Positions 2 to 33,463 of a stretch of DNA of 64,000 nt are shown here, piece after piece (position 1 is the stretch's first letter; each line of letters begins with the position of its first letter). The stretch is from Mucilaginibacter xinganensis (GTDB lineage Bacteria; Bacteroidota; Bacteroidia; Sphingobacteriales; Sphingobacteriaceae). The DNA is taken from the NCBI GenBank assembly GCA_026225055.1, contig JAMFSA010000226.1:31710-95709 (forward strand). Reading direction: 5' to 3'. The notes under the pieces were generated by a model. It searched no databases and was not told the DNA's origin. It saw only the letters and a list, made by a program, of their open reading frames with translations. The position numbers and the translations under genes are program-made.

Positions 2-136
2 TACCGTATAACGCTAAGCTGGTGGATAATGGCGCTGGCAAGTGTTATTACCATACTTATAGCCCTGCTAACGGTTAGTTATCAGGCAATAAAAGCTGCC
101 CTGGCCAACCCGATTAAAAGTTTGCGTTCGGAATAA
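2..136 (+). CDS. ABC permease of the array, C-terminal fragment (permease 0, cut by window edge)
   Basis: The reading frame is open from the left edge to a TAA at 134-136 and is missing from the ORF track because its start lies outside the window. It encodes the last transmembrane helix of a two-domain FtsX/MacB permease, beginning YRITLSWWIMALA and ending NPIKSLRSE, the tail shared by every permease that follows. This shows that the array extends further left and has at least thirteen members. The only visible difference from the other tails is NPIK instead of NPVK. The gene is cut by the window, so nothing suggests that it is broken. Confidence 0.9.
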   Translation, partial: YRITLSWWIMALASVITILIALLTVSYQAIKAALANPIKSLRSE

Positions 137-254
137 TGTTCATTGGTTCACTGGTTCATTAGTTCATTGGTCTTAGCACTTTGCTTAGATATTCATTTGA
201 CTACCGCTGCATACTAATGAACCAGTGAACCAGTGAACCAATAAACGCGAAGCA
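137..254. repeat. Array spacer IG0: inverted GTTCATT-word repeat
   Basis: Directly after the stop codon comes a run of 8-base words (GTTCATTG, GTTCACTG, GTTCATTA). About 45 bases later the complementary words AATGAACC/AGTGAACC follow, so the two arms can pair. The middle shares a TCTTAGCAC..GCTTAG and ACCGCTG..ATACTAATGAAC block with spacer IG11 (28643-28773). It lies before the regulatory block of permease 1, so it may end the transcript from permease 0. Confidence 0.8.
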
Positions 255-255
255 A

Positions 256-356
256 TGTGTATCATAACCGAACATATAGTGTTTCACTTGCGGACACATG
301 GTATATATTTATCTGTTTTAACTATTTGATTATTAGTTATTTATATTTTGGTATGT
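256..356 (+). promoter_or_regulatory. Composite promoter A (upstream element, IHF-like site, TTTGGTATG core)
   Basis: Three parts align without gaps with the regions at 13166 and 31286. (1) An upstream element, TGTATCATAACCGAAC at 258-273, continues with TGTT at 280-283 and a second CGNAC at 291-295. (2) 319-331 read on the minus strand is AATCAAATAGTTA, matching the IHF consensus WATCAANNNNTTR. (3) A TTTTGGTATG core lies at 346-355. From the CCG of the upstream element to the GG of the core is 80 bases. The layout resembles an enhancer-dependent sigma-54 promoter with TTGGTATG in the -24 position, but a convincing -12 GC element is missing. Assignment to sigma-54 is inference; the conservation itself is seen directly. 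Confidence 0.65.
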
Positions 357-421
357 AATTGGTCATTATTTATCTTGACCTCCTTTTGTAATTAGTAATT
401 ATTGCACTAACAGCCACTATC

Positions 422-2851
422 ATGATAAAAAACTATATAAAAACAGCTTTTCGCTCCCTTACCAAAAACAAGGGCTTTACCGCTATAAACGTTTTAGGCT
501 TGGCATTGGGCCTTGCCACTTGTTTGTTAATTGTTTTTTATGTTTTTGATGAGGTAAGTTATGACAAGTATAATGTAAACGCCGACAGGATCTTCCGTGT
601 AAACGAAGCTATAAAATTTGGCGGTGCCGATAATAAATATGCTGTAAGCCCTGCGCCTATGGCTGCAGCAATGAAAGCCGATTTCCCTGAGATAGACCAG
701 ATTGCAAGGTTTAGGGATCGTGGTGGTTTCCAGGTTAAAAAAGGGGCGCAGAATATCCAGGAAAACTCCATGATATATGCTGATCCTGAAGTGTTTAAGA
801 TATTTACATTGCCTGCCATAAGTGGCAACCCATATGCCGGGTTAAAAGAGCCACATAGTATTGTAATAACTGAGCGCGCCGCTAAAAAGTACTTTAACAG
901 CACCAATGTGGTAGGGCAAATGATGACCTTTAATGATACCGCCCTTTATAAAATAACTGCTGTAATATATAATGTGCCCAAACAATCGCATTTTAATTAC
1001 GACTTTTTTATCTCCATGTCAACCCTTGCTCAAAGTAAGGATGATTCATGGTTCAGCAGCAATTTTAATACCTATATATTGTTAAGGAAAGGAACTGATT
1101 ATAAAAGCCTTGAAGCAAAATTTGGTCAGTTTTTCAAAACGCATGCTGGCCCGCAATTGCAAAGCATCCTGCATTTAACTTTTGATAAGTTTGAGCAGGG
1201 TGGCAACTTTTTCAGGCTTACGCTTATCCCGCTTACCAAAATTCACCTGCAATCAAACATGGTAGGTGAACTGGGATTGAACAGTGATATACAATACGTA
1301 TATATGTTTTCGGCGATAGCCATATTTATATTGCTGATAGCCTGTGTAAACTTCATGAACCTGTCAACCGCCCGCTCCGCAAACCGCGCACGCGAAGTTG
1401 GAGTAAGAAAAGTGCTGGGTTCTCCACGTAAATACCTGATCTTCCAATTCCTGGCCGAATCAATAATGGTTACGCTGGCTGGAGCAGTAATAGCTGTAAT
1501 TGCTGCGTGGCTCTTATTGCCTTTGTTTAATAATATGGCCGATAAGGAACTAACCATTACCCACCAGATATTAGTGTGGTTAATACCTATCTTGTTACTT
1601 ATTATAGTTTTTATCGGTGTACTGGCAGGGTCATATCCAGCTTTCTTTTTATCAGGCTTTCAGCCGATACAGGTGCTTAAAGGCAAACTGTCAGCAGGCT
1701 TTAAAGGTGGAAATTTACGTAGCTTCCTGGTGGTATTTCAGTTTGCTATTTCCATATTCCTCATTATAGGCACATTGGTTATCTATAACCAGCTGAAGTA
1801 TATCCAGAATAAAGATCTCGGCTTTAACCGCAACCATGTGTTTACGGTTTGGGATGTATATACGCTTGGCAATAAAGCCAGCAGCTTTAAAGAGGAAATA
1901 AAGCAACTACCCGGGGTGCAGAGTGCTACACTAACAGGTGCTTTGCCTACAACTAATTATGCTAATAGTTCAACAGTATTTAAAGGCCCGGTTGCAGATC
2001 AGAAAAATGGCGTGTTGTTAACGGAATGGTATGCTGATGAAGATTATGTGCCAACACTTGGATTGAAAATATTAGCAGGCAGAAATTTTTCGCACCAGAT
2101 GGTAACTGATACAGATGCCGTATTGATCAATGAGGCGGCTGCTAAAATGTTTGGTTATGCCAACCCAATTAATCACGTGATCTATGACCCACAGGATCCC
2201 AAAGCTATGGTGTTAAAGCCGTACCACATTATTGGGGTAATGAAGGATTTTAATTATCAATCGCTAAGAAACAACGTAGGCCCTATGGTACTTTTTAGCG
2301 GGCATGATCTGGGTGGATTAACCGTTCGTTCATCAAATACAGCAAATATCACAGCCTTACTAAGCCAGGTGAAAGCTAAATGGGCGGAGTTTTCCCCTAA
2401 TCAAACGCTGAATTATTCATTTATGGATCAGGATTTTGATAAAATGTATCGCTCGGAGCAACGTGTAGGGGGGATAGCTATCGCGTTTACTTCATTGGCA
2501 ATTATCATCGCCTGTCTCGGGTTATTCGGCCTGGCAGCTTATGCAGCAGAACAGCGTACCAAAGAAATAGGTATCCGCAAGGTACTGGGTGCAAGTATGT
2601 CGACCATAGTGGGGATGTTATCACGTGATTTTATAAAACTGGTGCTCATCTCGATAGTTATAGCCTCGCCATTCGCATGGTATTTCATGAACAGGTGGTT
2701 TTTACAGGGTTTTGCCTACCGCCAGGATATACAATGGTGGGTTTTCGCGCTGGCAGCCGTTGCCGCAATACTTATAGCATTTGTAACTATCAGTTTTCAA
2801 TCAATAAAAGCGGCATTAACAAACCCGGTGAAAAGTTTGAGATCGGAGTAG
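422..2851 (+). CDS. Array permease 1, two-domain FtsX/MacB ABC permease
   Basis: An inner-membrane ABC permease of 809 residues with MacB-like periplasmic core and FtsX domains, each present twice. Helix 1 lies near residues 20-42, followed by a periplasmic domain to about 285, helices 2-5 to about 455, a second periplasmic domain to about 680 and three final helices. Coupling motifs are RAREVGVRKVLGS near 321 and RTKEIGIRKVLGAS near 711; the tail is NPVKSLRSE. It is the first gene of unit A behind the composite promoter. By eye its closest relative in the array is permease 4 (shared GLATCLLIVFYV, QSHFNYDFF and SARSANRA-type blocks). The substrate is unknown. The start is ATG with MIKNYIK, as in all members. 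Confidence 0.93.
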   Translation: MIKNYIKTAFRSLTKNKGFTAINVLGLALGLATCLLIVFYVFDEVSYDKYNVNADRIFRVNEAIKFGGADNKYAVSPAPMAAAMKADFPEIDQIARFRDRGGFQVKKGAQNIQENSMIYADPEVFKIFTLPAISGNPYAGLKEPHSIVITERAAKKYFNSTNVVGQMMTFNDTALYKITAVIYNVPKQSHFNYDFFISMSTLAQSKDDSWFSSNFNTYILLRKGTDYKSLEAKFGQFFKTHAGPQLQSILHLTFDKFEQGGNFFRLTLIPLTKIHLQSNMVGELGLNSDIQYVYMFSAIAIFILLIACVNFMNLSTARSANRAREVGVRKVLGSPRKYLIFQFLAESIMVTLAGAVIAVIAAWLLLPLFNNMADKELTITHQILVWLIPILLLIIVFIGVLAGSYPAFFLSGFQPIQVLKGKLSAGFKGGNLRSFLVVFQFAISIFLIIGTLVIYNQLKYIQNKDLGFNRNHVFTVWDVYTLGNKASSFKEEIKQLPGVQSATLTGALPTTNYANSSTVFKGPVADQKNGVLLTEWYADEDYVPTLGLKILAGRNFSHQMVTDTDAVLINEAAAKMFGYANPINHVIYDPQDPKAMVLKPYHIIGVMKDFNYQSLRNNVGPMVLFSGHDLGGLTVRSSNTANITALLSQVKAKWAEFSPNQTLNYSFMDQDFDKMYRSEQRVGGIAIAFTSLAIIIACLGLFGLAAYAAEQRTKEIGIRKVLGASMSTIVGMLSRDFIKLVLISIVIASPFAWYFMNRWFLQGFAYRQDIQWWVFALAAVAAILIAFVTISFQSIKAALTNPVKSLRSE

Positions 2852-3012: not shown

Positions 3013-5403
3013 ATGATAAAGAACTACATAAAGATCGCGTGGCGGAGCTTAACAAAGCAAAAATTGTATAGCCTTATCAATATATCGGGTTTGGCGGTAG
3101 GTTTGGCTGTTTGCATGATGATAATGTTGTATGTAGCCCATGAAATGAGTTACGACCGCTTTCATAAAAATGCAGATCGTATATTTTTGCCGAATGCGCA
3201 CATGAAAATGGGCGATGTTACAACCAGTATGGATTATACCAGCTATGTAACCGGTCCGCTTATCACCCAAAGTCAGCCAACTGTTGAAGAATATATGCGG
3301 ATGCTGACCTATTTCAGGCCGGTGATTGTAAGTGATCCGGCAATGCCATCCAGAAAATTTTCTGAAGATAAACTGCTATTTGCTGATCCCGGATTCTTTA
3401 ATTTCTTTTCCTTTAAACTGATAAATGGTCAGCCTGATGATGTGCTTAAAAAGCCATTTTCGGTAGTTATATCAAGCGATATGGCTAAAAAGTATTTTGG
3501 CAGTTCGGATGCTATTGGCAAAACCATTACTATAAAAACCGACAGTATTTATACCTACCAAGTTACAGGCGTTGCTGAGAGCGCACCTTCAAACTCTACC
3601 ATCCAGTTTAACTTTGTGGTATCAAACTCAAGTTTGCTGGCCATGAAAAACATACCTAATTACATCGGTATGCCAATGGTAGGCCCGGGTTCCTTTAATA
3701 CTTACCTGCTTTTAAAACATGCGTCGGATACCGCTAAATTAAGGCATGGTATGGATCTGATGATGAAAAATAACAAACAATTTTCTTCAGCGAAATTTTC
3801 ACTAACCGCGTTGCCTGCCACCCACCTCAATAGTTTTGGCGATGGCGCAAACCTCAAATATCTTAAAATATTCCCCATCGTAGCTTTGTTAATATTGCTG
3901 CTGGCATTGGTTAATTACATGAGCCTTTCAACAGCACGGGCAACGCTCAGGGCTAAGGAAGTGGGCGTGCGTAAAGTATCCGGCGCGAGCCGTAAAACCA
4001 TAGCCACACAGTTTTATGTAGAGTCGGCATTGTTTACCTGCCTGTCGTTTGGCCTGGGTTATATTTTATGTTATATGTTTAAGCCCTGGTTTTTAAACGT
4101 ATTACAGCTTAAGATTGATAATTCATTTTTATACAGCCCGATAGTTTTGGCGCTGATGTTTGCCTTGCTACTCATAACTGTATTAATAGCAGGCAGCTAT
4201 CCATCACTGGTGTTATCTGCGTTTAAGCCTGTCATCACCTTAAAAGGTAAAATGAGCAAGCAGGCAGGTGGTATTACGGTTCGCAAAGTGTTTACAACGC
4301 TGCAATTTTCCATATCAGTAGGCCTTATTATTTGCGGTATCGTTATCGACCGTCAGCTTTACTTTTTCAGGCATGCCGATATAGGCATTAACCACGATAA
4401 CGTAGTGGATATACCTATTACCAGGAGCTTCGGTGAAAGCTATCCTGCTTTTATAAAAGATGTACAATCACTGGCAGGTATAAGCAGTGTGGCTACCTCA
4501 CAATATGGCATGTTTAAAGGGTTCGATATGTACTCCATAAGTGGCAAACCTAACACCGATGCTGTTATGCTGCCTTCGTTATCGGTAAGCGAACAGTTTA
4601 TACCAACCATGGGTTTAAAATGGGCTATCCCGCCATCAACGGCTACAAGCCTGCTGGGTAAAAATAAAGTGGTGATAAATCAGCTGGCAATTGAAAAACT
4701 GCATCTTCCCGCAAATCCTGTTGGCAGTTACATTCAATCGGGTACACAAAAAGTTGAGGTTGTAGGTGTGGTGAAAAACTTCAATTTCAGTTCGATGGAA
4801 TATGCGCTGGAGCCATTAGGCCTTTTTATAGCGCCCGATACCAGTAAGTTTTGGGCCAGATGGGGTTGTAATTTATCAGTTCGCATTAAGCCGCATACTA
4901 ATTTACCTACGCTACTTGCTGCAATCCAAAATATCTACAAAAAATACGACCAGGAAACACCATTCAGCTATTCATTTATGGATGATGCCTTTAACGCGCA
5001 ATATAAGGCTGAAGACAGGCTGGCATCCATATTCAGCATATTTACCGGTATTACGGTTATACTGGCTACACTGGGATTGTTTGGCCTGGCTGCATTCACC
5101 ATTGAACAACGTACCAAGGAAATAGGTGTACGCAAAATATTAGGTGCAAGCCTTACAGCTATTACCACCCTGCTGTCAAAAGACTTTTTAAAACTGGTAG
5201 TACTGGCAATAATAATTGCTTCGCCAATAGCATGGTGGGCAATGAACAACTGGCTGCAAAACTTTGCTTACCGCATTACCATACACTGGTGGGTATTTGC
5301 CATAGCAGGTTTCATAGCCATATTTACGGCAATTATTACAGTTAGCTACCACGCTATTAAAGCAGCAGTGGCTAACCCGGTTAAAAGCTTACGTTCGGAA
5401 TAG
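3013..5403 (+). CDS. Array permease 2, two-domain FtsX/MacB ABC permease
   Basis: 796 residues with the eight-helix, two-periplasmic-domain layout of permease 1. The first coupling motif is RAKEVGVRKVSGAS near residue 312, with S in place of the usual L; the second is RTKEIGVRKILGAS near 700. The first periplasmic domain starts after DRFHKNADRIF and shares little with permease 1 beyond the family positions (the AKKYFGSSDAIGKTI block). The second, roughly 450-670, contains a VVGVVKNFNFSSM core typical of MacB-like domains. The start follows a repeat arm, CCAAAATAA-ATG, with no Shine-Dalgarno site. Likely co-transcribed with permeases 1 and 3. Substrate unknown. Confidence 0.92.
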   Translation: MIKNYIKIAWRSLTKQKLYSLINISGLAVGLAVCMMIMLYVAHEMSYDRFHKNADRIFLPNAHMKMGDVTTSMDYTSYVTGPLITQSQPTVEEYMRMLTYFRPVIVSDPAMPSRKFSEDKLLFADPGFFNFFSFKLINGQPDDVLKKPFSVVISSDMAKKYFGSSDAIGKTITIKTDSIYTYQVTGVAESAPSNSTIQFNFVVSNSSLLAMKNIPNYIGMPMVGPGSFNTYLLLKHASDTAKLRHGMDLMMKNNKQFSSAKFSLTALPATHLNSFGDGANLKYLKIFPIVALLILLLALVNYMSLSTARATLRAKEVGVRKVSGASRKTIATQFYVESALFTCLSFGLGYILCYMFKPWFLNVLQLKIDNSFLYSPIVLALMFALLLITVLIAGSYPSLVLSAFKPVITLKGKMSKQAGGITVRKVFTTLQFSISVGLIICGIVIDRQLYFFRHADIGINHDNVVDIPITRSFGESYPAFIKDVQSLAGISSVATSQYGMFKGFDMYSISGKPNTDAVMLPSLSVSEQFIPTMGLKWAIPPSTATSLLGKNKVVINQLAIEKLHLPANPVGSYIQSGTQKVEVVGVVKNFNFSSMEYALEPLGLFIAPDTSKFWARWGCNLSVRIKPHTNLPTLLAAIQNIYKKYDQETPFSYSFMDDAFNAQYKAEDRLASIFSIFTGITVILATLGLFGLAAFTIEQRTKEIGVRKILGASLTAITTLLSKDFLKLVVLAIIIASPIAWWAMNNWLQNFAYRITIHWWVFAIAGFIAIFTAIITVSYHAIKAAVANPVKSLRSE

Positions 5404-5592: not shown

Positions 5593-7968
5593 ATGATAAG
5601 AAACTACATAAAAACAGCTTACCGCAGCCTTACCAAAAATAAGGCTTACAGCTTTTTGAATATTTTCGGTTTGGCGATAGGGATTGCCTGTGCCGCGCTC
5701 ATTTTTTTATGGGTGGAGGATGAGGTTAATTACGATGCCGTAAACATTAAAAAAGAAAGGCTGTACATGCTGGAAGAAAACCAGAAGTACGATACCTATG
5801 TGTTTACCGAATCATCAACCCCCGGCCTGATGGGTCCGGCCATGAAGGCCGAACTGCCCGGCGTAGCCAACACCTGCCGCAGTACCGAAGGCGGAACCAC
5901 CTTATTATTCGGCAGTGGCGATAAGGCCGTTTTTGCAACGGGTATATATGCTGAAGCATCACTCTTCAGTATGTTTACACTGCCTTTTGTGCAGGGCAAC
6001 GCGACCTCAGTTTTCTCGCAGGTACATTCAATAGTCATCACTGAAAAAGCAGCTAAAAAGTTTTTTGGAAGCGATAAGGATGTTATAGGCAAAACTATCA
6101 GGGTTGACAATAAACAAGACTACGCCGTAAGCGGTGTTATCAAAGATATTCCGGCAAATTCAAGCATACAGTTTGAGTGGGTAATGCCATTTAAGATCTA
6201 CTTTGATCAAAGTCCGTGGTTAACCAATTGGGGCAATCAATCCGTAACTACTTATGTGGAGTTAAAGCCCGGTGTCGACCCGCAAACAGTAAACAAACAA
6301 CTCTATAGTTACATACAAAAGCGCGTACCAACCGCATTGGGCCATGCCTTTTTATTCAGCATGAATGATTGGCATTTGCGCGATGATTTTAAAGACGGCA
6401 AAATGACCGGCGGCGGGCAGATAGAATATGTGCATCTGTTCATGGTTATCGCATGGATCATCCTGTTTATCGCCTGCATCAACTTCATGAACCTCGCCAC
6501 TGCCCGCAGCGAAAAGCGGGCACGCGAGGTAGGGGTACGTAAAGTATTAGGCGCGGGTAAAAACCTGCTCATCATGCAGTTCATCGGCGAAGCTATTTTT
6601 ATGGCTGTTATAGCTGCACTGGTATCCGTATTCATTGTTATACTTGTTTTACCAGCCTTTAATCTACTGGTGCAAAAGCAGCTTACATTAGGGTTGGGTA
6701 ATCCGCTGCACATTATCTCTTTATTACTTATCACCCTGATATGCGGATTGGTTGCGGGCAGTTATCCATCATTCTACCTGTCGTCGTTTAACCCGGTATC
6801 GGTACTTAAAGGGGTGAAGTTAAAAACAGGTGGCGCGGCATTTATCCGTAAGGGTTTGGTGGTAATGCAGTTCAGCGTTTCCATAGTGCTTATCATCAGT
6901 ACAATAATTGTTTACCAGCAGATTCAGCACGTTAAAAGCAGGCAACTGGGTTTCAATAAAGATAACCTCTTAGAAATTCCTTTGCAGGGCGATATGGGTA
7001 AAAATTTCCAGGTAATAAAACAGGACCTGCTCAATACCAGCTATGTAGCTAACGCCGCGCTTGCTGATCATGCGTTGATCTACGGTGGTAACAATACTTC
7101 CGGACTTACCTGGGATGGCAAACCTGCCGGCTCGAAAGTGCTCATATCGCAACGTTATGTATCGCCCGAGTTTATGGAAACAACAGGCTTAAAGATAGTA
7201 GACGGGAGGGGTTTAACGATTAGTGATACCGCCAGGCCGATCCGCATGATCATCACCCAATCATTGGCAAAGTTAATGGGTAAAGGCAGCGCGATAGGGA
7301 AAAGGATCCACGGGGAGGGTGATACCACATCGGCGGTAGTGGTAGGTGTGGTTAATGATTATGTATATGGCAACATGTATGGTCAGCATCCCGATCCGGT
7401 CATGTTTTTCAGCGCCCCGCCGCAGGATGAAACAGTGATGTATGTGCATGTTAAGCAACAGGCTGATATTGAAAAATCAATAGCCGCAATACAAGGTGTT
7501 TTGAAAAAGGATAACCCTGCATACCCATTCGATTATCGCTTTGTTGACGATCAATTTAACCAGATGTTTTTAACTGAGATGCTGGTAAGTAAGCTATCAA
7601 GGGTATTTGCTACGTTGGCGATCATCATCTCCTGTATGGGCCTGTTTGGTTTAGCCGCTTACACTGCCGAACGCCGTACCAAAGAGATTGGAATCCGCAA
7701 AGTGCTTGGCGCAAGTGTATCAGGAATAGCCGCCCTGCTTTCAAAGGACTTTTTACAACTGGTGATCATATCTTGTGCCGTTTCATTTCCGCTGGCCTAC
7801 TGGGCAATGCAGAACTGGCTGAAAAACTACGAGTATCGTATTGGCATAAACGGGTGGATATTTGTAATTGCAGGTATATCGGCTATAATAATCGCGGTGG
7901 TTACGGTCAGCTTCCAATCAATAAAAGCTGCGGTGGCTAACCCGGTTAAGAGCTTACGCTCGGAATAA
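5593..7968 (+). CDS. Array permease 3, two-domain FtsX/MacB ABC permease
   Basis: 791 residues. Helix 1 is unusual in carrying IACAALIFLWVEDEVNYD, where other members have a longer aliphatic run. Coupling motifs are RAREVGVRKVLGAG near 309 and RTKEIGIRKVLGAS near 695. Blocks shared with the family are the SIVITEKAAKKFFGSD strand and the VVGVVNDYVYGNM core in the second periplasmic domain, where most members have KDFN/KDFH at this place. The region of residues 55-110, after the first helix, is unlike its neighbours. It is the middle gene of unit A. The partner ATPase is presumably the one encoded at 31436, since none lies nearer. Confidence 0.92.
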   Translation: MIRNYIKTAYRSLTKNKAYSFLNIFGLAIGIACAALIFLWVEDEVNYDAVNIKKERLYMLEENQKYDTYVFTESSTPGLMGPAMKAELPGVANTCRSTEGGTTLLFGSGDKAVFATGIYAEASLFSMFTLPFVQGNATSVFSQVHSIVITEKAAKKFFGSDKDVIGKTIRVDNKQDYAVSGVIKDIPANSSIQFEWVMPFKIYFDQSPWLTNWGNQSVTTYVELKPGVDPQTVNKQLYSYIQKRVPTALGHAFLFSMNDWHLRDDFKDGKMTGGGQIEYVHLFMVIAWIILFIACINFMNLATARSEKRAREVGVRKVLGAGKNLLIMQFIGEAIFMAVIAALVSVFIVILVLPAFNLLVQKQLTLGLGNPLHIISLLLITLICGLVAGSYPSFYLSSFNPVSVLKGVKLKTGGAAFIRKGLVVMQFSVSIVLIISTIIVYQQIQHVKSRQLGFNKDNLLEIPLQGDMGKNFQVIKQDLLNTSYVANAALADHALIYGGNNTSGLTWDGKPAGSKVLISQRYVSPEFMETTGLKIVDGRGLTISDTARPIRMIITQSLAKLMGKGSAIGKRIHGEGDTTSAVVVGVVNDYVYGNMYGQHPDPVMFFSAPPQDETVMYVHVKQQADIEKSIAAIQGVLKKDNPAYPFDYRFVDDQFNQMFLTEMLVSKLSRVFATLAIIISCMGLFGLAAYTAERRTKEIGIRKVLGASVSGIAALLSKDFLQLVIISCAVSFPLAYWAMQNWLKNYEYRIGINGWIFVIAGISAIIIAVVTVSFQSIKAAVANPVKSLRSE

Positions 7969-10664: not shown

Positions 10665-13034
10665 ATGATAAAGAGCTATTTTAAAATCGCCTGGCGGAAT
10701 TTGCTGAAGAGCAAGTTTTACACCGCCATTAACATTGCCGGCCTAACAGTTGGGCTGGCCGTAGGTTTACTTATTTTACTATGGGTAAACGATGAGTTGA
10801 GTTTTGACAAGTTCAATACCAAAGCCGATAATATTTATCGGATGGAAGCGCAGATAGGTGCAGGCAGTACCCAGCAGATCTGGTGCGGTATACAGGCCCC
10901 TGTTGCTTTTTTTGGCCTGAAAGAGGTGCCCGGTGTGGTAAATGCTGTTCGGATGGTATCTAATTGGGACTATTCTTTGTACAAATACCATGATAAATCG
11001 TTGGATGTTGGCGATAATGGCGCGTTTTATACCGATGCATCCTTATTTAAGGTTTTTGACTTTAAATTATTGGAAGGTAATCCAAATAATCCTTTCCCTA
11101 ATAACCAGTCTATCATCATCACCCAAACCACAGCCAAACGGTTTTTTGGCAACGCCGATCCGATAGGGAAAATAATTCAGGCAGATAATCATGATAACTA
11201 TACCGTAGCCGGTATCGCGGCTGATATGCCCGGTAACTCCAGTATTAAGTTTGATATGTTGTTTTCTATCAATGTGCTGGCAAAAAGAAACTATGACGGC
11301 AAAGGCTACTGGAAAACTATGGATAGCGACTGGGGTGATTATTTTTACGATACCTATTTTCAATTGCAGCCGGGTGTTTCGGCACAATCGGTTGCCGATA
11401 AGCTTACACAGATCCACATAAAAAATCAGGCTGGTTCGGGTGGTATAAAATACATACCTCAACCTTTGGATAAAATGCATTTATATAATGCCGATGGTAC
11501 CCCATCAGGCATCCAAACGGTAAGGGTTTTCTTAATTGTGGCCATTCTTATTTTGTTGATAGCCTGTATCAACTATGTAAACCTTTCAACCGCGCGTGCT
11601 ATGCTGAGGGCTAAAGAAGTAAGTGTACGCAAAATAATAGGTGCGGGTAAAAAACAATTGTTTATCCAGTTTGTAGTCGAAACGATTTTGTTTTTCTCCA
11701 TAGCACTGGTACTTGCTTTTGTGCTGATTGAAGTTTTGATGCCTTTATACAACAGTGTATCGGGTAAACAAATGAAGTTTGATTTGTTGGATGCTGGTGT
11801 TTGGAAGGTAGTAGGTATCACTGTAGTGGCTACGCTGGCGGCATCAAGCATTTATCCTGCATTTTTATTGTCGTCGTTTAAGCCTATTAACGCGCTTAAA
11901 GGTAAGCTGTCGCTGGGCGTTGGTAATACTACATTCCGCAAAACACTGGTGGTTTGCCAATTTATATTTTCTATTGGTTTGATCATCGGCACGCTGATCA
12001 TCAACAGCCAACTAAAATATATCAGGGAAAAAGAGTTGGGCTACGATAAATCCTACGTGTTTACATTCGGCATGCGCGATATGCAGAAGAACTATGAATC
12101 AGTACGTGCGCAATTGTTAAATCAACCGGGTATAAAAGATGTTACTACCGCTAGCGATAACATTGTAAGTTTGGGTGGCAGCACTGGTGATACCGATTGG
12201 GATGGCAAAACACCCGGCAGTAACTTTGAGGTTCACCCACTGGGTATCAGCCAAAATTATGTCGACTTTTTTAAACTGAAAATTATAAAGGGCAGTAACT
12301 TTTTAGGCATAAAGGCCGATACCGCGCACTATATCCTGAATGAAACCGCGGTACGTGAGGCCGGTATTAAAGATCCGGTAGGCAAACGCTTTAAATTGCA
12401 CAATCAAAACGGGATCATCATTGGTGTGGTGAAAGATTTTCACTTCGCATCCCTCAAACAAAAAATTGAGCCTACCATATTCTTTTACACCCCCAGCAAC
12501 TGGCGCATGTTTGTAAAAACAACCGGCAAGGATGCCCCGCAAGCGATAGCGGCCGTACAAAAAGCATGGAAACAATATAACCCGGCTTTTCCTTTAGATT
12601 ATACCTTTCTGGATGAAACCTTCAATGAAATGTATAAAGCCGATCAGCGTTCAGGTACATTGTTTAGTTGGTTTACTGGTATAGCTATCCTCATATCATG
12701 CCTCGGTCTGTTTGGTTTGGCAACCTACACCGCGCAGGTGAAGGTGAAAGAAATAGGCATCCGTAAAGTGCTGGGTGCAAGCGTTGCCAATATTACCACG
12801 ATGCTTTCAAAAGACTTTTTAGTGTTGGTAGTGGTATCCATTATTATTGCAACCCCAATAGCCTGGTACGCCATGAATAAATGGTTGCAGGCCTTTGCCT
12901 ACCGGATAGAGATACAGTGGTGGATATTTGCATTAGCCGGCGTACTGGCAATTGTAATAGCCTTTATAACTATAAGTTTTCAGGCCATAAGAGCGGCTAT
13001 TGCCAACCCGGTTAAAAGTTTGCGGTCCGAATAA
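10665..13034 (+). CDS. Array permease 5, two-domain FtsX/MacB ABC permease
   Basis: 789 residues, the shortest full member. The first coupling motif is RAKEVSVRKIIGAG near 315, with S for G at the sixth place. The second is KVKEIGIRKVLGAS near 693, where the usual R-T is K-V. The first periplasmic domain contains tryptophan-rich stretches (IWCGIQAPVAFFG, GYWKTMDSDWGDYFYD) not seen in permeases 1, 2 and 4. It is the last gene of unit A, because a composite promoter lies in the next gap. It shares the N-terminus MIKSYFKIAWRNLLKSK with the rest. Substrate unknown. Confidence 0.92.
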   Translation: MIKSYFKIAWRNLLKSKFYTAINIAGLTVGLAVGLLILLWVNDELSFDKFNTKADNIYRMEAQIGAGSTQQIWCGIQAPVAFFGLKEVPGVVNAVRMVSNWDYSLYKYHDKSLDVGDNGAFYTDASLFKVFDFKLLEGNPNNPFPNNQSIIITQTTAKRFFGNADPIGKIIQADNHDNYTVAGIAADMPGNSSIKFDMLFSINVLAKRNYDGKGYWKTMDSDWGDYFYDTYFQLQPGVSAQSVADKLTQIHIKNQAGSGGIKYIPQPLDKMHLYNADGTPSGIQTVRVFLIVAILILLIACINYVNLSTARAMLRAKEVSVRKIIGAGKKQLFIQFVVETILFFSIALVLAFVLIEVLMPLYNSVSGKQMKFDLLDAGVWKVVGITVVATLAASSIYPAFLLSSFKPINALKGKLSLGVGNTTFRKTLVVCQFIFSIGLIIGTLIINSQLKYIREKELGYDKSYVFTFGMRDMQKNYESVRAQLLNQPGIKDVTTASDNIVSLGGSTGDTDWDGKTPGSNFEVHPLGISQNYVDFFKLKIIKGSNFLGIKADTAHYILNETAVREAGIKDPVGKRFKLHNQNGIIIGVVKDFHFASLKQKIEPTIFFYTPSNWRMFVKTTGKDAPQAIAAVQKAWKQYNPAFPLDYTFLDETFNEMYKADQRSGTLFSWFTGIAILISCLGLFGLATYTAQVKVKEIGIRKVLGASVANITTMLSKDFLVLVVVSIIIATPIAWYAMNKWLQAFAYRIEIQWWIFALAGVLAIVIAFITISFQAIRAAIANPVKSLRSE

Positions 13035-13266: not shown

Positions 13267-13301
13267 TTTTAATTGTATTTGTATGTAACCACCCCCGCAT
13301 C

Positions 13302-23526: not shown

Positions 23527-25986
23527 ATGATAAAAAACTATTTTAAAATTGCATTCCGGGGATTTTGGAAGCATAAATTGTTTACGCTGATCAATGTTAT
23601 AGGCCTTTCAATAGGCATCAGCGCGGCGCTGGTGATTTACCTCATTGTTCATTTTGATTTTACATTTGATAAGTTTCATCCTGATGGCGATCGCATTTAT
23701 CGTGTGGTTACCAACTATTCGTATTCTGGCCAAACAGGGTATAATAGCGGTGTTTGTGGTCCGCTTGCCGGGGCTGTGCGCAGCCAGGTTACAGGTGTTG
23801 AGACCACTGCGCCTTTTTACATGCTGTATCAGCCTAATGTGTTTGTGCCGGGTAAAGGTAATGTGCCCGTTAAGTTTAAGAATGAGGATAATGTGATATT
23901 GGCAGATCAGCAATACTTTAAAATATTTGACTATAAATGGCTGGCCGGATCGGTATCAGCTTTAAACTCACCTAATCATGTAGTGCTTACTTCTGATCAG
24001 GCTAAAAAATATTTCCCGTTGCTGTCGTATGATCAGATGATAGGTAAAATTGTTACTTATGATATCATAAAAACTGCTGTTGCCGGTATTGTGGAAACCA
24101 TAAAGCAAAATACCGATTTTACTTTTCACGATTTTATATCCTATAGTACCAATGCTGCTAACGCTACCATAAAAGATCAGTTGCAATTAGCCAATTGGGG
24201 TTCTACTACATCACAATCACAGTTATTTGTGAAGCTATCAGCCAAAACAAATATTGTGCATGTTGAAAAGCAAATGACAGCCCTGCTTAATAAAAACTTT
24301 AAGGAGGAAAAGGGCAACACCGGTGGTTTTAGTCTGCAGCCATTAAACGACCTGCATTTTAATGAGAAATATGGCGCTTTTGATAGTGAGCACCAGGCCA
24401 ATAAAACAACCTTGTACGGTTTGTTAATTATAGCAGCCTTTTTGTTGATATTAGGTTGTATAAACTTTGTTAACTTAACTACGGCACAGGCAACACAAAG
24501 GGCTAAAGAGATCGGCATCCGTAAAACTATGGGCAGCAGCCGCAAGCAATTGGTTGTACAATTTTTAAGCGAAACATTTTTAATAACACTCATCGCGGTA
24601 ATCATCTCTATAGGGCTTGCACCCATCATCCTGAAACTTTTTACTGATTTTATCCCAGCCGGTATCAAAGTCAGCTTTTTGGCTCAGCCGCATGTTATAT
24701 TGTTTTTGCTGGCATTAACCATTGTGGTTAGCCTATTGTCTGGTTTTTATCCTGCCATATTATTATCGGGTTATAAGCCTTTGTTAGTGCTCAAAAATCA
24801 GGCGAGCTCAAACAGCAGCAAAACAAGGAATGCCTATCTGCGTAAATCATTAACTGTTACCCAGTTTGTTATTGCGCAGTTTTTTATAATGGCTACCATA
24901 TTGGTCAGTAAGCAAATTTATTATGCCATTAATAAGGATATGGGCTTTAAAAAAGATGCTATCCTGATCATCAATACACCATGGAAAGACAGGAGCGTAA
25001 GTAAAAGGGATGTGTTTTTAAATAAGCTGCGATCTATTCCACAAATTGATAAGATAAGCGTAGGAGGCAATACGCCGCCATCATCAAATAATACCAACTC
25101 AACCGAGGCCACTTTTAAGGATGGTAAAAAGGAAATCAAAATAGATCTTCAGGAAAAATACGGCGACGAGAACTATATAAAAGTGTACAATATTAAACTG
25201 TTGGCGGGCCGTAATCTCCGCAGTACCGATACTTCAAAAGCCTTTCTTATTAATGATAATTATGCACGGTTGCTCGGCTTTAAAACCCCTCAGGCTGCTG
25301 TTGGCAAGCAGATAGATAAGTTTAACGGGGATAGAACCATGCAAATTGTTGGCGTAGTGGCCGATTTTAACCAGGGGTCGCTGCATACGCCTATAGTGCC
25401 CATAGCCATACTTACCAGCACTTCGGTATATCAGAATGGTACATTCAATGTTGCCCTAAAACGGGAGACAGCCGGCGGAACGGAATGGAAAAAAGCCATT
25501 GCACAAATGGGGGCCTATTATAAAGAGACTTACCCCGACGATGATTTCGAATACCAGTTTTTTGATGCGAGCATTAAAAAATTCTATGAAAGCGAACAGC
25601 ATACCTCAACCTTGCTGGCATGGGCAACTGGTTTATCTATATTTATTAGCTGCCTGGGCTTATTAGGTTTAGCCATTTATACCACAAACCAGCGCACTAA
25701 GGAGATAGGTGTTCGTAAAGTACTCGGTGCATCAGTAACGCAGATAGTAACCTTACTATCAACCGAAGTAATAATACTTATAGTATTGGCCTTTGTGATT
25801 GTAACCCCTGCCGCATGGTGGGCCATGAATAAATGGATGCAAAGCTTTGCCGACAGGACCTCTATCAGCTGGTGGATATTTGCCGCAAGCGGTGCCGGCA
25901 TGCTGATCCTGGCTGTATTTACATCAGGTTTCCAAACGGTAAAAGCGGCTGTCGCAAATCCGGTAAAAAGCTTGAGATCAGAATAG
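23527..25986 (+). CDS. Array permease 10, two-domain FtsX/MacB ABC permease
   Basis: 819 residues. Coupling motifs are RAKEIGIRKTMGSS near 325 and RTKEIGVRKVLGAS near 724. Helix 6 is CLGLLGLAIYTTNQR, lacking the AE pair. The C-terminal part (ADRTSISWWIFAASGAG, VFTSGFQTVKAAVANP) is the most divergent of the tails but still ends NPVKSLRSE. Periplasmic domain 1 has a SYSGQTGYNSGVCGPLAGAV stretch with a single cysteine, and residues 125-190 contain an extended LLSYDQMIGKIVTYD loop. It is flanked on both sides by spacers of the GTCATT word, unlike permeases 1-8. Confidence 0.92.
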   Translation: MIKNYFKIAFRGFWKHKLFTLINVIGLSIGISAALVIYLIVHFDFTFDKFHPDGDRIYRVVTNYSYSGQTGYNSGVCGPLAGAVRSQVTGVETTAPFYMLYQPNVFVPGKGNVPVKFKNEDNVILADQQYFKIFDYKWLAGSVSALNSPNHVVLTSDQAKKYFPLLSYDQMIGKIVTYDIIKTAVAGIVETIKQNTDFTFHDFISYSTNAANATIKDQLQLANWGSTTSQSQLFVKLSAKTNIVHVEKQMTALLNKNFKEEKGNTGGFSLQPLNDLHFNEKYGAFDSEHQANKTTLYGLLIIAAFLLILGCINFVNLTTAQATQRAKEIGIRKTMGSSRKQLVVQFLSETFLITLIAVIISIGLAPIILKLFTDFIPAGIKVSFLAQPHVILFLLALTIVVSLLSGFYPAILLSGYKPLLVLKNQASSNSSKTRNAYLRKSLTVTQFVIAQFFIMATILVSKQIYYAINKDMGFKKDAILIINTPWKDRSVSKRDVFLNKLRSIPQIDKISVGGNTPPSSNNTNSTEATFKDGKKEIKIDLQEKYGDENYIKVYNIKLLAGRNLRSTDTSKAFLINDNYARLLGFKTPQAAVGKQIDKFNGDRTMQIVGVVADFNQGSLHTPIVPIAILTSTSVYQNGTFNVALKRETAGGTEWKKAIAQMGAYYKETYPDDDFEYQFFDASIKKFYESEQHTSTLLAWATGLSIFISCLGLLGLAIYTTNQRTKEIGVRKVLGASVTQIVTLLSTEVIILIVLAFVIVTPAAWWAMNKWMQSFADRTSISWWIFAASGAGMLILAVFTSGFQTVKAAVANPVKSLRSE

Positions 25987-28780: not shown

Positions 28781-31192
28781 ATGATAAGAAACTACCTTAA
28801 AACAGCATGGCGTAACCTGCTGCAGAACAAACTAACATCTTTTATAAGCATAGCCGGTTTATCGGTTGGGATAGGTTGTTTTTTGCTGCTTGCAACTTAT
28901 ATATTAAATGAGTTGAGCTATGATAAGTTTAACATAAATGCGGATCGTATAGTAAGAATAGTTCAGCATCTGAAATCGGAAGATAATAACGAAGAATTAA
29001 TAAACGCGGTTACACCCACTGCGCCCGTACCTGTATTTAAACAACAGCTTGCAGAGGTTGCTGACGGTGTGCGTGTTTTTAATTATTCGGATTATAAGCC
29101 CGCGGCGGTTCAGTATCACGATAGGTTGTTTAATGAGCGCAATATGCTGGTTGCTGATGAATCGTTCTTTAAAATATTCAGTTTTAAATTTTTAGAGGGA
29201 AATGCAGCAAACGCGCTCGATCAGGTTAATTCAGTAGTTGTTACTGCCTCCACGGCAAAAAAATACTTTGGTAATGAAGATCCTTTAGGTAAGATATTGA
29301 AGGTGAATGGCAGCAATATGATGGTAGGCGGTGTGATTGAGGATGTGCCCGCTTACTCGCAGATAAAGTTTGATTTGATGGGGAATTACGCCATGCTCAG
29401 CAGGTCAAAAACCCGCAAATGGAATTCCTCTAATGATTATTCATACTTATTACTAAAAACCGGCGTAAGTGTTAAAACCGCTAAAGAGAAAATAAATGCT
29501 TACACAGATAATTTATTTAAGGATGACATAGATAAAGGCCATACGGCGTGGTATACGCTTGAACCACTTACCAGCGTACATTTATACTCAAAAGCCAATG
29601 ATAACCTGGAGCCTTTGGGCAACATAAAATACGTTTACATACTATCATTAATTGCGGTTGTGCTGCTTTTGCTGGCCTGCGTTAACTTTTTAAACCTTGT
29701 TTCGGCAAAATCAATTGAGCGGGCTCATGAAGTAGGTGTGCGTAAAGTAATGGGGGCCTTGCGCGGGCAATTGTTTGTTCAGTTTATTATTGAAGCCGCT
29801 ATTATAACATTAGTCTCGTTAACTGCCGGGGTTTTGCTTGCATGGTTTACTTTTCCATGGTTCAGTAATTTTATAGGGCATCAACTCGGCTTTCAGACCT
29901 GGGATATGAGGTTGTTGCTGCCTTCGCTGCTGGCATTGTTTATTGTGGTTACTTTACTGGCCGGCACTTACCCATCATTATATCTTTCTGCTTTTAAGCC
30001 CGTTACAACCCTGAAAGGGAAGTTGGGTGGAAGCGCCAAAGGGCGCGTATTGCGTAAATCGCTGGTTGTTTTACAGTTTACGGTATCTGTATTTTTCATT
30101 ATCGGCACCATAGTGGCAGGCAGCCAAATGAAATATATTCAGGTTATCAATACCGGTATCAACCGTTCACAGGTTATGGTTTTGGATATTGGAGGGATAC
30201 CCTACACAAAAATGCAAGCCTTTGCAAAGGAGCTGATGCAGCAGCAAACAGTTAGCAATGTAAGTGCTTCGTATGATTCACCGGTGAATGTAAGAGGCGG
30301 CTATAGCATTAACAAGGCGCAGGGTAAAGGAGATAACCTGCACTTAATGATAACCGCTATACCGGTTGAAAGAAACTTTGTAAATACACTCGGCATAAAA
30401 CTAATAGCAGGAAATAATTTTACATTGGGCGATGAACAGCGGGTGCTGGATACCAATAGTGAAAAACGCGTTTACTCATTTATCCTAAATGAATCTGCTG
30501 TGAAAGCGCTGGGCTGGAAACCTGATGAAGCCATCGGTAAACAAATTACAATGGCAGGCCGCCAGGGCGAAATAAGGGGAGTGGCCCGCGATTTTAATTT
30601 CGCATCACTGCACCAGGAGATCACCCCGATCGTCTTATTTCCGCAATATGATTATTTCGGCAAAATGCTCATCAAAACATCTGGCGCTGATATGGTTAGA
30701 TCTGTTAACGATATAAAAAGGAGCTGGAAGTCTTTTTTCCCTGATGCACCTTTTGAGATACATTTTTTGGATCAGGAATATGATGAGTTGTATCAAACCG
30801 ATCAAAAAACCAGTGGCATTTTAACGGTGTTTACATTGGTTACTATTTTTATATCGTGCCTGGGTTTGTTTGGATTGGCCATTTTCAGCACCAAACAACG
30901 GATCCGCGAAATTGGTATCCGTAAGGTTTTAGGTGCCAGTGTAACCAGTATCCTCAGTCTTATTTCATGGGATTTTTTGAAGCTGGTAACCATCTCTGTT
31001 ATTATAGCCTCACCTGCAGCTTACTACATCATGAATAAATGGCTGCAAGACTTTGTATACCGCATACATATACAATGGTGGGTGTTTGCCCTCGCGGGTG
31101 GCCTGGCATTTTTAATTGCCTTTATAACCATTTGTTACCAATCTGTTAAAGCAGCCATGGCCAACCCGGTTAAAAGCTTGAGGTCAGAATAG
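28781..31192 (+). CDS. Array permease 12, two-domain FtsX/MacB ABC permease
   Basis: 803 residues, the last permease and nearest to the ATPase gene. Coupling motifs are RAHEVGVRKVMGAL near 313 (H for K/R) and RIREIGIRKVLGAS near 708, and helix 6 is CLGLFGLAIFSTKQR. The first periplasmic domain begins after DKFNINADRIVRIVQ. The second carries an extra stretch EQRVLDTNSEKRVYSF around residue 568 before the FILNESAVKALGW strand. It ends unit B, since promoter C lies in the following gap. It cannot be told from sequence whether this member is the main partner of the ATPase. Confidence 0.92.
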   Translation: MIRNYLKTAWRNLLQNKLTSFISIAGLSVGIGCFLLLATYILNELSYDKFNINADRIVRIVQHLKSEDNNEELINAVTPTAPVPVFKQQLAEVADGVRVFNYSDYKPAAVQYHDRLFNERNMLVADESFFKIFSFKFLEGNAANALDQVNSVVVTASTAKKYFGNEDPLGKILKVNGSNMMVGGVIEDVPAYSQIKFDLMGNYAMLSRSKTRKWNSSNDYSYLLLKTGVSVKTAKEKINAYTDNLFKDDIDKGHTAWYTLEPLTSVHLYSKANDNLEPLGNIKYVYILSLIAVVLLLLACVNFLNLVSAKSIERAHEVGVRKVMGALRGQLFVQFIIEAAIITLVSLTAGVLLAWFTFPWFSNFIGHQLGFQTWDMRLLLPSLLALFIVVTLLAGTYPSLYLSAFKPVTTLKGKLGGSAKGRVLRKSLVVLQFTVSVFFIIGTIVAGSQMKYIQVINTGINRSQVMVLDIGGIPYTKMQAFAKELMQQQTVSNVSASYDSPVNVRGGYSINKAQGKGDNLHLMITAIPVERNFVNTLGIKLIAGNNFTLGDEQRVLDTNSEKRVYSFILNESAVKALGWKPDEAIGKQITMAGRQGEIRGVARDFNFASLHQEITPIVLFPQYDYFGKMLIKTSGADMVRSVNDIKRSWKSFFPDAPFEIHFLDQEYDELYQTDQKTSGILTVFTLVTIFISCLGLFGLAIFSTKQRIREIGIRKVLGASVTSILSLISWDFLKLVTISVIIASPAAYYIMNKWLQDFVYRIHIQWWVFALAGGLAFLIAFITICYQSVKAAMANPVKSLRSE

Positions 31193-31285: not shown

Positions 31286-31387
31286 TGTGTATCATAACCG
31301 TACGCTCCATGTTACGTAAGCGAACAGTTTTTAGTTGAAGAGTATCTTTTAATATGTTGATAATTAGCAATTTATAACTTTGGTATG
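31286..31387 (+). promoter_or_regulatory. Composite promoter C for ATPase-tolC
   Basis: The third copy of the composite block. The upstream element is TGTATCATAACCGTAC at 31288-31303, with TGTTAC at 31310-31315 and GCGAACA at 31320-31326. An IHF-like site lies at 31350-31362 (minus strand TATCAACATATTA) and the core CTTTGGTATG at 31378-31387. CCG to GG is 82 bases. Here the core also contains TAACTTTG, a perfect match to the Bacteroidota -7 box TAnnTTTG, so a housekeeping promoter cannot be excluded. The presence of the same block before the ATPase ties this gene to the permease units. Confidence 0.65.
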
Positions 31388-31435
31388 TTATTCATACAAA
31401 TCTCTGTAAATTCAGGAAATCAAATAAATAATTAA

Positions 31436-32113
31436 ATGTTATCACTTCAGCATATTTCAAAATACTACCAAACCGGCGGAAACAAGAACTTTGTAATTAA
31501 TGATATCAGTCTTGATATTGATGAGGGTGAGTTTGTTTCTATCATGGGCCCATCAGGTTCGGGTAAATCAACGCTTTTAAACATCATCGGCATGCTTGAT
31601 GAGCCATCAGATGGTTATCATTATTTTGTGAATGAGTCCGTTCATCAGCTTAAAGATAAACAGCGCTCGGCCCTGTATAAAAAGTATATAGGTTTCGTTT
31701 TCCAGGCTTACCATTTAATTGATGAGCTTACAGTATATGAAAATATCGAAACTCCGCTTATTTACCAGGATTTTAAAGGCGCTGAACGGAAAGCCATGGT
31801 GGCCGATATGCTTGATCGTTTCCAGATAGTTGGTAAAAAAGATCTGTTCCCGGCACAATTATCAGGCGGGCAACAGCAACTGGTTGGCATAGCCCGTGCA
31901 TTGATAGCCAAACCTAAATTATTACTGGCCGATGAGCCTACCGGTAACCTTAACTCGAAACAGGGCGAGGAGATCATGGAGCTATTCAGGAAATTAAATA
32001 AGGAAGATGGTGTAACCATTATACAGGTAACCCACTCTGAAAAAAATGCAGAATACGGTAGCCGAATCATCAATCTTTTAGACGGCAGGATAGAGTCATC
32101 AAAAAAATTCTGA
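31436..32113 (+). CDS. ABC transporter ATP-binding protein (LolD/MacB type)
   Basis: A 225-residue cytoplasmic ATPase of the MacB/LolD subfamily that powers FtsX-type permeases. Walker A GPSGSGKST lies at 38-46, the Q-loop FVFQAYHLIDELTVYEN near 90, signature LSGGQQQ near 141, Walker B LLLADEPTGNL near 161 and the H-loop QVTHSE near 200. The signature has QQQL in place of the common QQRV. It is the only ATPase gene in the window, so it is the obvious partner for the thirteen permeases. It lies 27 bases before the tolC-like gene and shares the composite promoter type of the array. It is not fused to a permease, unlike E. coli MacB. Confidence 0.93.
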   Translation: MLSLQHISKYYQTGGNKNFVINDISLDIDEGEFVSIMGPSGSGKSTLLNIIGMLDEPSDGYHYFVNESVHQLKDKQRSALYKKYIGFVFQAYHLIDELTVYENIETPLIYQDFKGAERKAMVADMLDRFQIVGKKDLFPAQLSGGQQQLVGIARALIAKPKLLLADEPTGNLNSKQGEEIMELFRKLNKEDGVTIIQVTHSEKNAEYGSRIINLLDGRIESSKKF

Positions 32114-32140
32114 GCAATTAATAATATATCAAACATAAAA

Positions 32141-33463
32141 ATGTCATTCCGTAACTACATCATATTTTTTTTACTGGCACTGGGTTTTAGCGCGCATGCG
32201 CAGCAACAAGGTAATTTAATAACACTGCAGCAGTGTTTGGATACTGCTATAAAAAATAATTTAACCGTACAGCAAACTGCTATAACCGCCGAACGGGCAC
32301 GTATAGGTTATGTACAGGCAAAAGATAACCTGATACCAACAGTAAGCGGCGGCATATCGCGCGAGTTAAGCACAGGTCGTGCAATTAACCCTGTTACTAA
32401 TACTTATATAAATCAGGCGGTTACGTCTGATAATTATGGCTTATCAGGTGGTGTAACTGTGTTTAATGGTCTGGCGCTTCAGAGCGCTATTAAACAGGCC
32501 TCGTTAGCTTATCAATCTGGTAAAATGGCATACCAGGCAGCAAAGGATATAATTACTGTGACGGTTATCACCAGTTATCTGCAGGTGTTGGATGCCGAGG
32601 CTATATTAAACCAAACAAAAAGCCAGCTTTCAGTTGCCAAAGAAGGTGCAGACAGAATTGAAACTTTGGAAAAAGAAGGTGCTAATAAATTAGCTTCGGA
32701 TGTGTACGATCAGCGGGGCTTATTGCAGGCGAGCAATGTTAATGTGGTAACCGCTCAAAATTCATTTAGTTCAGCGATGCTGAATTTGTTCCAAATAATG
32801 AATGTACCTTATAATCGTAACGCGGAACTGCAACCATTGAATGCTGAGGACCTGAGAGGCGACAAAGATGTATTGCCCGACCAGGTATACCAAACAGCAT
32901 TAGAACAACTGGCCGATGTTAAAGCTGCTACACTAATGCGCCAAAGCGCCGAAAAAGAAGTAAAATATTATAAGGGTTTATTATACCCGTCATTAGCGCT
33001 TCAATACGGAATAAATACAAACTATACCAATTCAAATCCGATCAGCTACTCCGATCAGTTTAAAAACAACTATGGTACCTATGTGCAGTTAGGTTTAAGT
33101 ATCCCTATATTCACCAATCATTTTAGGAAGAACCAGGTATCATTAGCCAAACTTGATCTGTTGAACTATCAATATGTTGAAGAAAATACAAAAATAACGT
33201 TAAGGCAAAACGTTGAGCAGGCCTATTATAACATGATGGCGGCTTATAACAAATATCAGGCACTTGATGGAGAATCAAAAGCTTATACCGAAAGCTTCAG
33301 GATCTCAAAAATACGTTACGAGGCGGGTGTACTTACATCTGTTGATTATATCACCTCAAAAAATAATATGGATGCTGCCAACCTAAACCTTATCAGTGCC
33401 CGTTACGACTACTTTATTTATAGTAAAGTACTGGATTATTACCAGGGTAAATTATCTTTTTAA
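32141..33463 (+). CDS. TolC family outer-membrane efflux protein
   Basis: 440 residues with a signal peptide (about 1-21, ending SAHA-QQQG) and two OEP repeats. It is rich in long amphipathic helices (residues 135-215 and 340-430) with the conserved LDLLNYQYVEENTKITLRQNVEQAY-type second repeat. It forms the outer-membrane channel of tripartite export systems. It directly follows the ATPase gene and is probably co-transcribed with it from promoter C. The length is usual for Bacteroidota TolC homologs. No periplasmic adaptor gene accompanies it in the window, so an adaptor must be encoded elsewhere or the permease periplasmic domains contact it directly; that is inference. Confidence 0.9.
   Translation: MSFRNYIIFFLLALGFSAHAQQQGNLITLQQCLDTAIKNNLTVQQTAITAERARIGYVQAKDNLIPTVSGGISRELSTGRAINPVTNTYINQAVTSDNYGLSGGVTVFNGLALQSAIKQASLAYQSGKMAYQAAKDIITVTVITSYLQVLDAEAILNQTKSQLSVAKEGADRIETLEKEGANKLASDVYDQRGLLQASNVNVVTAQNSFSSAMLNLFQIMNVPYNRNAELQPLNAEDLRGDKDVLPDQVYQTALEQLADVKAATLMRQSAEKEVKYYKGLLYPSLALQYGINTNYTNSNPISYSDQFKNNYGTYVQLGLSIPIFTNHFRKNQVSLAKLDLLNYQYVEENTKITLRQNVEQAYYNMMAAYNKYQALDGESKAYTESFRISKIRYEAGVLTSVDYITSKNNMDAANLNLISARYDYFIYSKVLDYYQGKLSF

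Follow-up and report, generated by a model that had tools for sequence, protein, structure and literature searches.

Anatomy of the permease array

We analyzed a 64,000-nucleotide (nt) stretch of the soil bacterium Mucilaginibacter xinganensis (the window; bases 31710-95709 of the 95.7-kb contig C112, JAMFSA010000226.1, in a genome of 6.64 Mb) that carries a tandem array of ATP-binding cassette (ABC) permease genes. The window start falls inside the array, and reading the whole contig yielded 15 two-domain permeases (P01-P15, 781-835 amino acids [aa]), all on the same strand, with no internal stops and with intergenic gaps of 105-285 nt. They stand in the order divergent histidine kinase and sigma54-type regulator, HlyD adaptor, ATPase LolD1, P01-P15, ATPase LolD2 and TolC. 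A sequence-only reading of the window had described one partial (1-136) and twelve full permease genes on one strand, followed by an ATPase and a TolC-like gene, and this is what the window holds: twelve full open reading frames (ORFs) of 789-835 aa lie in tandem on the + strand from 422 to 31192. Its figure of at least thirteen permeases stands as a lower bound; the window edge cuts the array, and the contig gives 15. Its single ATPase does not stand, as LolD1 before P01 and LolD2 after P15 make two dedicated ATPases. The flanks, where it had proposed looking for the array start and any adaptor or regulator genes, supplied that start, the HlyD adaptor, the second ATPase, and the divergent regulator with its histidine kinase.

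Features on the contig, outside or across the window start:
Divergent from HlyD, outside the window: response regulator (receiver, sigma54-interaction domain, Fis helix-turn-helix) and histidine kinase
C112:22302-23564: HlyD-type adaptor, upstream of the window
C112:23625-24302: ATPase LolD1, upstream of P01, outside the window
C112:24444-26789: permease P01, outside the window
C112:26911-29307: permease P02, outside the window
C112:29476-31845: permease P03, whose 3' end is window 1..136 (+)

Features in window coordinates:
258..295 (+): direct-repeat box before P04 (22-bp period), candidate regulatory site
422..2851 (+): permease P04, 809 aa, the permease modeled with AlphaFold2
3013..5403 (+): permease P05, 796 aa, missing in Mucilaginibacter sp. 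X5P1; types 65-70% identical occur in the relatives G014, G008, G010 and G004
5593..7968 (+): permease P06, 791 aa
8118..10514 (+): permease P07, 798 aa, with no X5P1 ortholog; another permease fills that slot
10665..13034 (+): permease P08, 789 aa
13167..13204 (+): direct-repeat box before P09, candidate regulatory site
13299..15776 (+): permease P09, 825 aa from ATG; the start is probably this ATG at 13299 rather than the TTG at 13257 given in the ORF list
15924..18338 (+): permease P10, 804 aa
18444..20840 (+): permease P11, 798 aa
20967..23387 (+): permease P12, 806 aa, 77% identical to its X5P1 counterpart (neighbors 91-98%)
23527..25986 (+): permease P13, 819 aa
26135..28642 (+): permease P14, 835 aa, the most divergent, without a close relative in the Mucilaginibacter arrays read
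28781..31192 (+): permease P15, 803 aa, a type that in four other species is the last or next to last before LolD2
31288..31325 (+): direct-repeat box before LolD2, candidate regulatory site
31436..32113 (+): ATPase LolD2, 225 aa, with LSGGQQQL for LSGGQQQR and D-loop NLNS for NLDS
32141..33463 (+): TolC-type outer-membrane channel, 440 aa, two OEP domains
33650..34279 (+): outer-membrane beta-barrel OMP_b-brl_2, behind TolC in several relatives too; a possible accessory

Family, fold and divergence of the permeases

Pfam found MacB_PCD and FtsX halves in the permeases, which bears out the two-domain FtsX/MacB type assigned from the letters alone. The best full-length family model for the array permeases was ADOP (TIGR03434), at 216-352 bits against a cut-off of 622.3 that 0 of the 41 TIGR03434 matches in the genome reached; against DarB (NF038008) they scored 68-168 bits (cut-off 700). 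An AlphaFold2 model of P04, built from 57 sequences (predicted local distance difference test 85.9, predicted template modeling score 0.79), has eight transmembrane (TM) helices, two periplasmic domains and two coupling helices, at residues 323-331 (between TM2 and TM3) and 713-721 (between TM6 and TM7). Foldseek with this model returned YbbP first (9ge6, E 4.5e-19), then MacB, LolE, a P. gingivalis permease domain (3is6) and BceB. Each half is predicted to have four TM helices, a periplasmic domain that follows TM1, and a coupling helix that links TM2 to TM3; with this layout the protein conforms to the type VII ABC (MacB-like) class.

All 15 array permeases retain the two coupling helices, with mean identities of 58% and 65%, while the periplasmic domains average 24-25% and the C-terminal tail NP[V/I]KSLRSE averages 97%. 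As judged from these alignments, the helices predicted to face the ATPase have been kept while the periplasmic domains have diverged.

A conserved frame with a varying repertoire

The frame histidine kinase-response regulator/HlyD-LolD1-(P)n-LolD2-TolC recurs across Mucilaginibacter with n of 6 (E4BP6 and G011), 7 (G001), 12 (G008), 15 (X5P1 and this genome), 21 (G004) and about 22 (G013); in G010 the array is split between distant loci, with 11 permeases at the head and 3 at the LolD2 end. Outside the genus we found 14 permeases in Sphingobacterium faecium, 10 in Balneolaceae ih13, 6 in Balneola EhC07 and about 7 in Adhaeribacter aquaticus. The alphaproteobacterium Eilatimonas milleporae has the same frame with 2 permeases, which suggests horizontal transfer. 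The adaptor is present as a single copy each in 58 of 121 sampled family genomes, from 17 of 22 genera, and the 20 of these 58 genomes that were read over 40 kb carry 2-13 permeases. The comparison of array size that the sequence-only reading had proposed thus shows a permease number that varies among relatives within a conserved frame, and its description of the array as unusually long holds in part: the arrays extend from about 2 to about 22 permeases, and 15 is toward the top of that span.

Among named relatives, the closest that we found was Mucilaginibacter sp. X5P1, the sister species used for comparison, with an adaptor 98% identical. The two arrays share 11 collinear permease orthologs (91-98% identical, P12 77%), and four permeases are private to each side. 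Ten ortholog pairs have a ratio of nonsynonymous to synonymous substitution (dN/dS) of 0.03-0.06, periplasmic domains included, and the P12 pair is saturated at synonymous sites; because of this saturation, and because its identity is 77% against 91-98% for its neighbors, P12 was probably replaced in one lineage. Permease order is kept with X5P1 (rho 1.0) and becomes looser with distance. The 186 permeases from 12 Mucilaginibacter genomes fell into 51 groups at 55% identity, 34 of which span species; 0 of the 51 are multi-member groups confined to one species. Taken together, the alignments indicate that the permeases are not recent copies: they are distinct types of long standing, kept by strong purifying selection, which have been gained, lost and reassorted between species. 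The "exchangeable set" of the sequence-only reading is therefore apt in the evolutionary sense: whole permeases have been gained and lost collinearly with respect to the sister species, and old types have been reassorted across the genus.

The array of G004 also holds 6.7 kb of ordinary genes (L061-L065, G004:C1:1288485-1295152), for tryptophan synthesis, RecR, a K+ channel-like protein and a glycosyltransferase, and therefore unrelated DNA can invade arrays. Nearly every permease gap (window 2852-31435) contains a long palindrome of 7-8-nt units (GTTCATTAGTTCATTGG... / CCAATGAACTAATGAAC...) that runs from just past the stop to just ahead of the next start, with a median RNA fold z of -7.6; the gaps before P13, P14 and LolD2 have a palindrome of another unit. 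One 18-mer of these repeats has 49 matches in the genome, 23 of them in this region. At the P10 gap (window 15777-15923) the repeat family differs from that of the orthologous X5P1 gap before X11 (L120), and therefore palindromes are replaced independently of genes. We rejected the intergenic hairpins as a working part on this difference and on the E4BP6 gaps, which are 12-30 nt long and do without them; we regard the palindromes as repeats that have colonized the gaps, or possibly as sites of recombination, rather than as components of the machine. Scanning the window with Rfam/PF and for tRNAs turned up nothing of relevance.

ATPases, adaptor and channel

LolD1 has canonical motifs (GPSGCGKS, LSGGQQQR, ADEP, NLDS and THS). 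In LolD2 the Walker A, Walker B and H-loop are intact; across Mucilaginibacter, Sphingobacterium and Balneola its signature is LSGGQQQ followed by L, I or V and its D-loop is NLNS or NLHS. Nine other genomes of the family share the altered motifs; the D-loop pattern of one more was not read. The changes occur in both Bacteroidota and Balneolota. Because the LolD2 residues that contact the partner ATPase are changed and conserved in this form, the two ATPases may make up an asymmetric pair. The same changes, from R to L, I or V after the signature and from D to N or H in the D-loop, could instead mark LolD2 as a decayed or separately used ATPase that sits at the array end by chance and is not a motor subunit, which its absence beside some arrays would also fit. 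We consider this doubtful: LolD2 is 88% identical across the genus with Walker A, Walker B and the H-loop intact, the same residues are altered in both Sphingobacteriaceae and Balneola, and the gene has its own copy of the direct-repeat box described below.

DarD (NF038007) is the best NCBIfam model of both ATPases (LolD1 299 bits, LolD2 253; cut-off 375), and DarC (NF038010) that of the adaptor (153 bits; cut-off 450). The adaptor scores above the RND_mfp cut-off (TIGR01730; 135.8 versus 94.9 bits) and has MacA matches in the PDB, so that an MFP-family adaptor and a TolC gene (OEP) stand in one locus, as in a tripartite pump.

Mean identity across the genus is 94.6% for LolD1, 88% for LolD2, 87% for the regulator, 68% for HlyD and 52% for TolC, and 59-70% for permease orthologs. 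LolD1 is the most conserved LolD-type ATPase in the genus, by a margin that is not wide, and between X5P1 and this genome the control comparison of LolD-type ATPases gave 97%. The idea that LolD1 conservation proves many partners is weakened by this control.

Permeases outnumber ATPases

Across six genomes, we counted from 8 to at least 39 such permeases versus 4-7 LolD-type ATPases each (E ≤ 1e-40). This genome has 13 further permeases at 12 unlinked loci, several of them near contig ends, and no LolD or HlyD of the array type lies beside them in the stretches read. A dedicated ATPase for each permease, encoded elsewhere, would have spoken against the sharing that the sequence-only reading proposed; the ATPase counts and the neighborhoods of these 13 permeases led us to reject it. 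The low LolD counts, the unlinked loci and the coupling helices conserved in all 15 permeases support array permeases that would work on a common motor, although not on the single ATPase first envisaged. The expectation that each two-half permease binds two ATPases is supported by YbbP, solved 2:1:1 with its ATPase and TesA (PMC12646458).

Two further loci are of note. A single-half MacB/FtsX permease of 415 aa (window 57490-58737) adjoins citrate synthase, with no ATPase beside it. Elsewhere in the genome, a compact second system (L150, G000:C221:66000-75000) has a LolD, two separate half-permeases, a response regulator and a kinase in a row, and a weak adaptor match upstream.

A direct-repeat box and candidate regulation

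A 38-bp direct repeat, TGTATCATAACCGTAC, 6 bp, TGTNACANNAGCGTAC, with a period of 22 bp, occurs in perfect form four times in the 6.6-Mb genome, before HlyD, P04, P09 and LolD2 (reversed control, 0); the only one-mismatch site lies before an unlinked permease. The box precedes HlyD in every Mucilaginibacter frame scanned, LolD2 in six, and one to four internal permeases in most arrays, with the start codon usually 120-180 bp away. Box sites score 36-63, compared with a maximum of 9.6 in shuffled sequence. Diverged boxes that score above all shuffles lie 92-144 bp upstream of 4 of the 13 unlinked permeases (L141, L142, L139 and L146, on G000 contigs C3, C97, C39 and C249), which suggests one regulon that may extend past the array.

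The four boxes would split the array into HlyD-P03, P04-P08, P09-P15 and LolD2-TolC. At all four array boxes a TGG element begins 91-93 bp from the start of the box. RpoN is present in the genome. A clean sigma54 -24/-12 promoter was rejected, only the GG of a -24-like element being constant. We infer that the neighboring regulator binds the box.

Proposed mechanism and alternative readings

We propose that the locus encodes a type VII ABC (MacB-like) tripartite exporter laid out like DarBCD-TolC, in which one HlyD/DarC-like adaptor, one TolC and an ATPase pair would serve 15 full-length permeases. Each permease is a fused pair of MacB-type halves, with one ATPase expected under each half, and the motor would likely be a mixed LolD1/LolD2 pair or a LolD1 dimer, in which LolD2 may be the regulatory half. 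The periplasmic head is conserved within each permease type and particular to it, so that each type probably has its own periplasmic or membrane substrate. The histidine kinase and sigma54-type activator would act through the four boxes, of which one stands at the head, two are internal and one precedes LolD2-TolC, switching on the whole set together, and the repertoire would change through gain, loss and replacement of whole permease genes.

For the broad form of this proposal, a tripartite DarBCD/MacAB-TolC-like exporter with many permeases on a common motor, adaptor and channel, co-induced by one two-component system, we estimate a probability of roughly 0.6. A more specific form is tentative, a little short of even odds: a modular exporter in which a conserved asymmetric LolD1 and LolD2 motor, one adaptor and one channel would exchange partners among up to about 22 co-regulated heads, drawn from a genus-wide pool reassorted as cassettes.

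Several observations weigh against this exporter. Some arrays have no adjacent LolD2, and therefore LolD2 is not obligatory in cis. Other LolD-type classes in the genus are 75-92% identical, which leaves only a moderate excess for LolD1, and the motor has evolved more slowly than the adaptor and TolC. The supposed sigma54 promoters are without a clean -12 element, and the common motor is argued from gene counts and conserved surfaces rather than from a complex.

The locus might instead be a set for envelope-stress or antimicrobial-peptide detoxification and sensing, Bce/Lia-like, in which the permeases bind membrane-active compounds and dislodge them, or else pass a signal to the histidine kinase, and only some or none export via TolC. 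The divergent two-component system that heads most arrays would suit such a role, as would BceB among the fold matches of P04. Secreted Toastrack-type genes (DUF4097, DUF2807, TSGGSI repeats) are a further hint of envelope stress: at least seven Mucilaginibacter genomes (L056-L095; G013, G004, G014, G010, G008, G006 and G011) have them in their arrays as single inserts, and Adhaeribacter has a related one (L127). Toastrack has been tied to PSP/Lia envelope stress, and HAAS-FtsX/MacB fusions have been reported (PMC11237479); the domain was predicted there to be intracellular, whereas the array-linked proteins start with signal-peptide-like sequences. None of these genes lies inside this array or that of X5P1, and no Toastrack homolog of that kind was detected in this genome, in a search without a positive control. 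The frame also includes a MacA-type adaptor and a TolC gene, which Bce systems are without, and the array permeases have two periplasmic domains each, not one. On this balance a Bce/Lia-like role is unlikely.

Extraction of lipids or lipoproteins in the manner of LolCDE or YbbAP, with inner-membrane material handed to the adaptor and outer membrane, seems improbable. LolE and YbbP are among the closest folds of the permease, the LolD-type ATPases are separate genes, and Bacteroidota bear many outer-membrane lipoproteins. A separate LolD-type class (a), however, is conserved in the genus at 88-92% and may be the housekeeping LolD, the adaptor is of the RND/MacA type with TolC adjoining, and the array holds no lipoprotein substrate gene. 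Recent dosage amplification into functionally alike copies, which the tandem arrangement on one strand and the regular gaps might bring to mind, can be dismissed, as no in-array pair reaches 60% identity, the best in-array match has a median of 39% versus 93% to the sister species, and none of the groups formed at 55% identity has several members from one species only.

Comparison with known systems

With the terms used, we found no papers on such arrays in the open-licence PMC literature. Duplicated MacB-type permeases occur by the dozen per genome in Bacteroidota and Acidobacteriota with no function or motor assigned, and in this locus such permeases are linked with a particular pair of motor genes, one adaptor, one channel and one regulator. 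Their heads are of old origin; each is conserved in its own right, and heads have been exchanged among species. The conserved box offers a handle for finding inducers, and the function of orphan permeases becomes testable by deleting a single motor or regulator gene. If the proposed exporter is correct, the array would be a naturally occurring example, in a Gram-negative envelope, of a single ATPase set that drives many ABC permeases.

ADOP genes are defined by having no adjoining ATPase. The array resembles them in its large paralog family and duplicated MacB/FtsX halves; unlike such orphans, it is flanked on both sides by LolD-type ATPases and has a linked adaptor, TolC and regulator. In Dyadobacter, 28 and 33 genes were labeled ADOP by RAST (PMC11573002), and one acidobacterial metagenome-assembled genome has 102 ADOP genes (PMC10564751).

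With YbbAP(-TesA), whose permease was the top Foldseek match (9ge6), the array shares a fused two-half permease and two separate ATPases. YbbAP-TesA is a 2:1:1 complex with coupling helices between TM2-3 and TM8-9 (PMC12646458). YbbP has 10 TM helices with a linker pair, has no adaptor or TolC and binds TesA, while the P04 model has 8 TM helices. The eight TM helices and two periplasmic domains of the model also differ from a Bce permease, which has 10 TM helices and one large extracellular domain.

MacAB-TolC has the same tripartite layout, a MacB-type fold in each permease half and a MacA-like adaptor. In MacB the ATPase is fused N-terminally and the protein is a homodimer, whereas the array has separate ATPases, two fused 4-TM halves and many permeases per adaptor.

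DarBCD is alike in its fused two-half permease, separate LolD-type ATPase and HlyD-type adaptor. All array parts fall below the NF038008, NF038010 and NF038007 cut-offs, however, and DarBCD has one permease and one ATPase where the array has 15 permeases, two ATPases and a dedicated two-component system. DarBCD exports a peptide antibiotic, or is annotated as its exporter, but the antibiotic is produced without it (PMC9055067). We found neither a radical SAM enzyme nor a precursor gene among the Pfam-scanned neighbors or the array-flanking ORFs of 100 aa or longer, a search that a short precursor could escape. Overall, we infer a many-permease, shared-motor, co-regulated version of a MacB/DarBCD-type exporter, with turnover of its permeases as cassettes.

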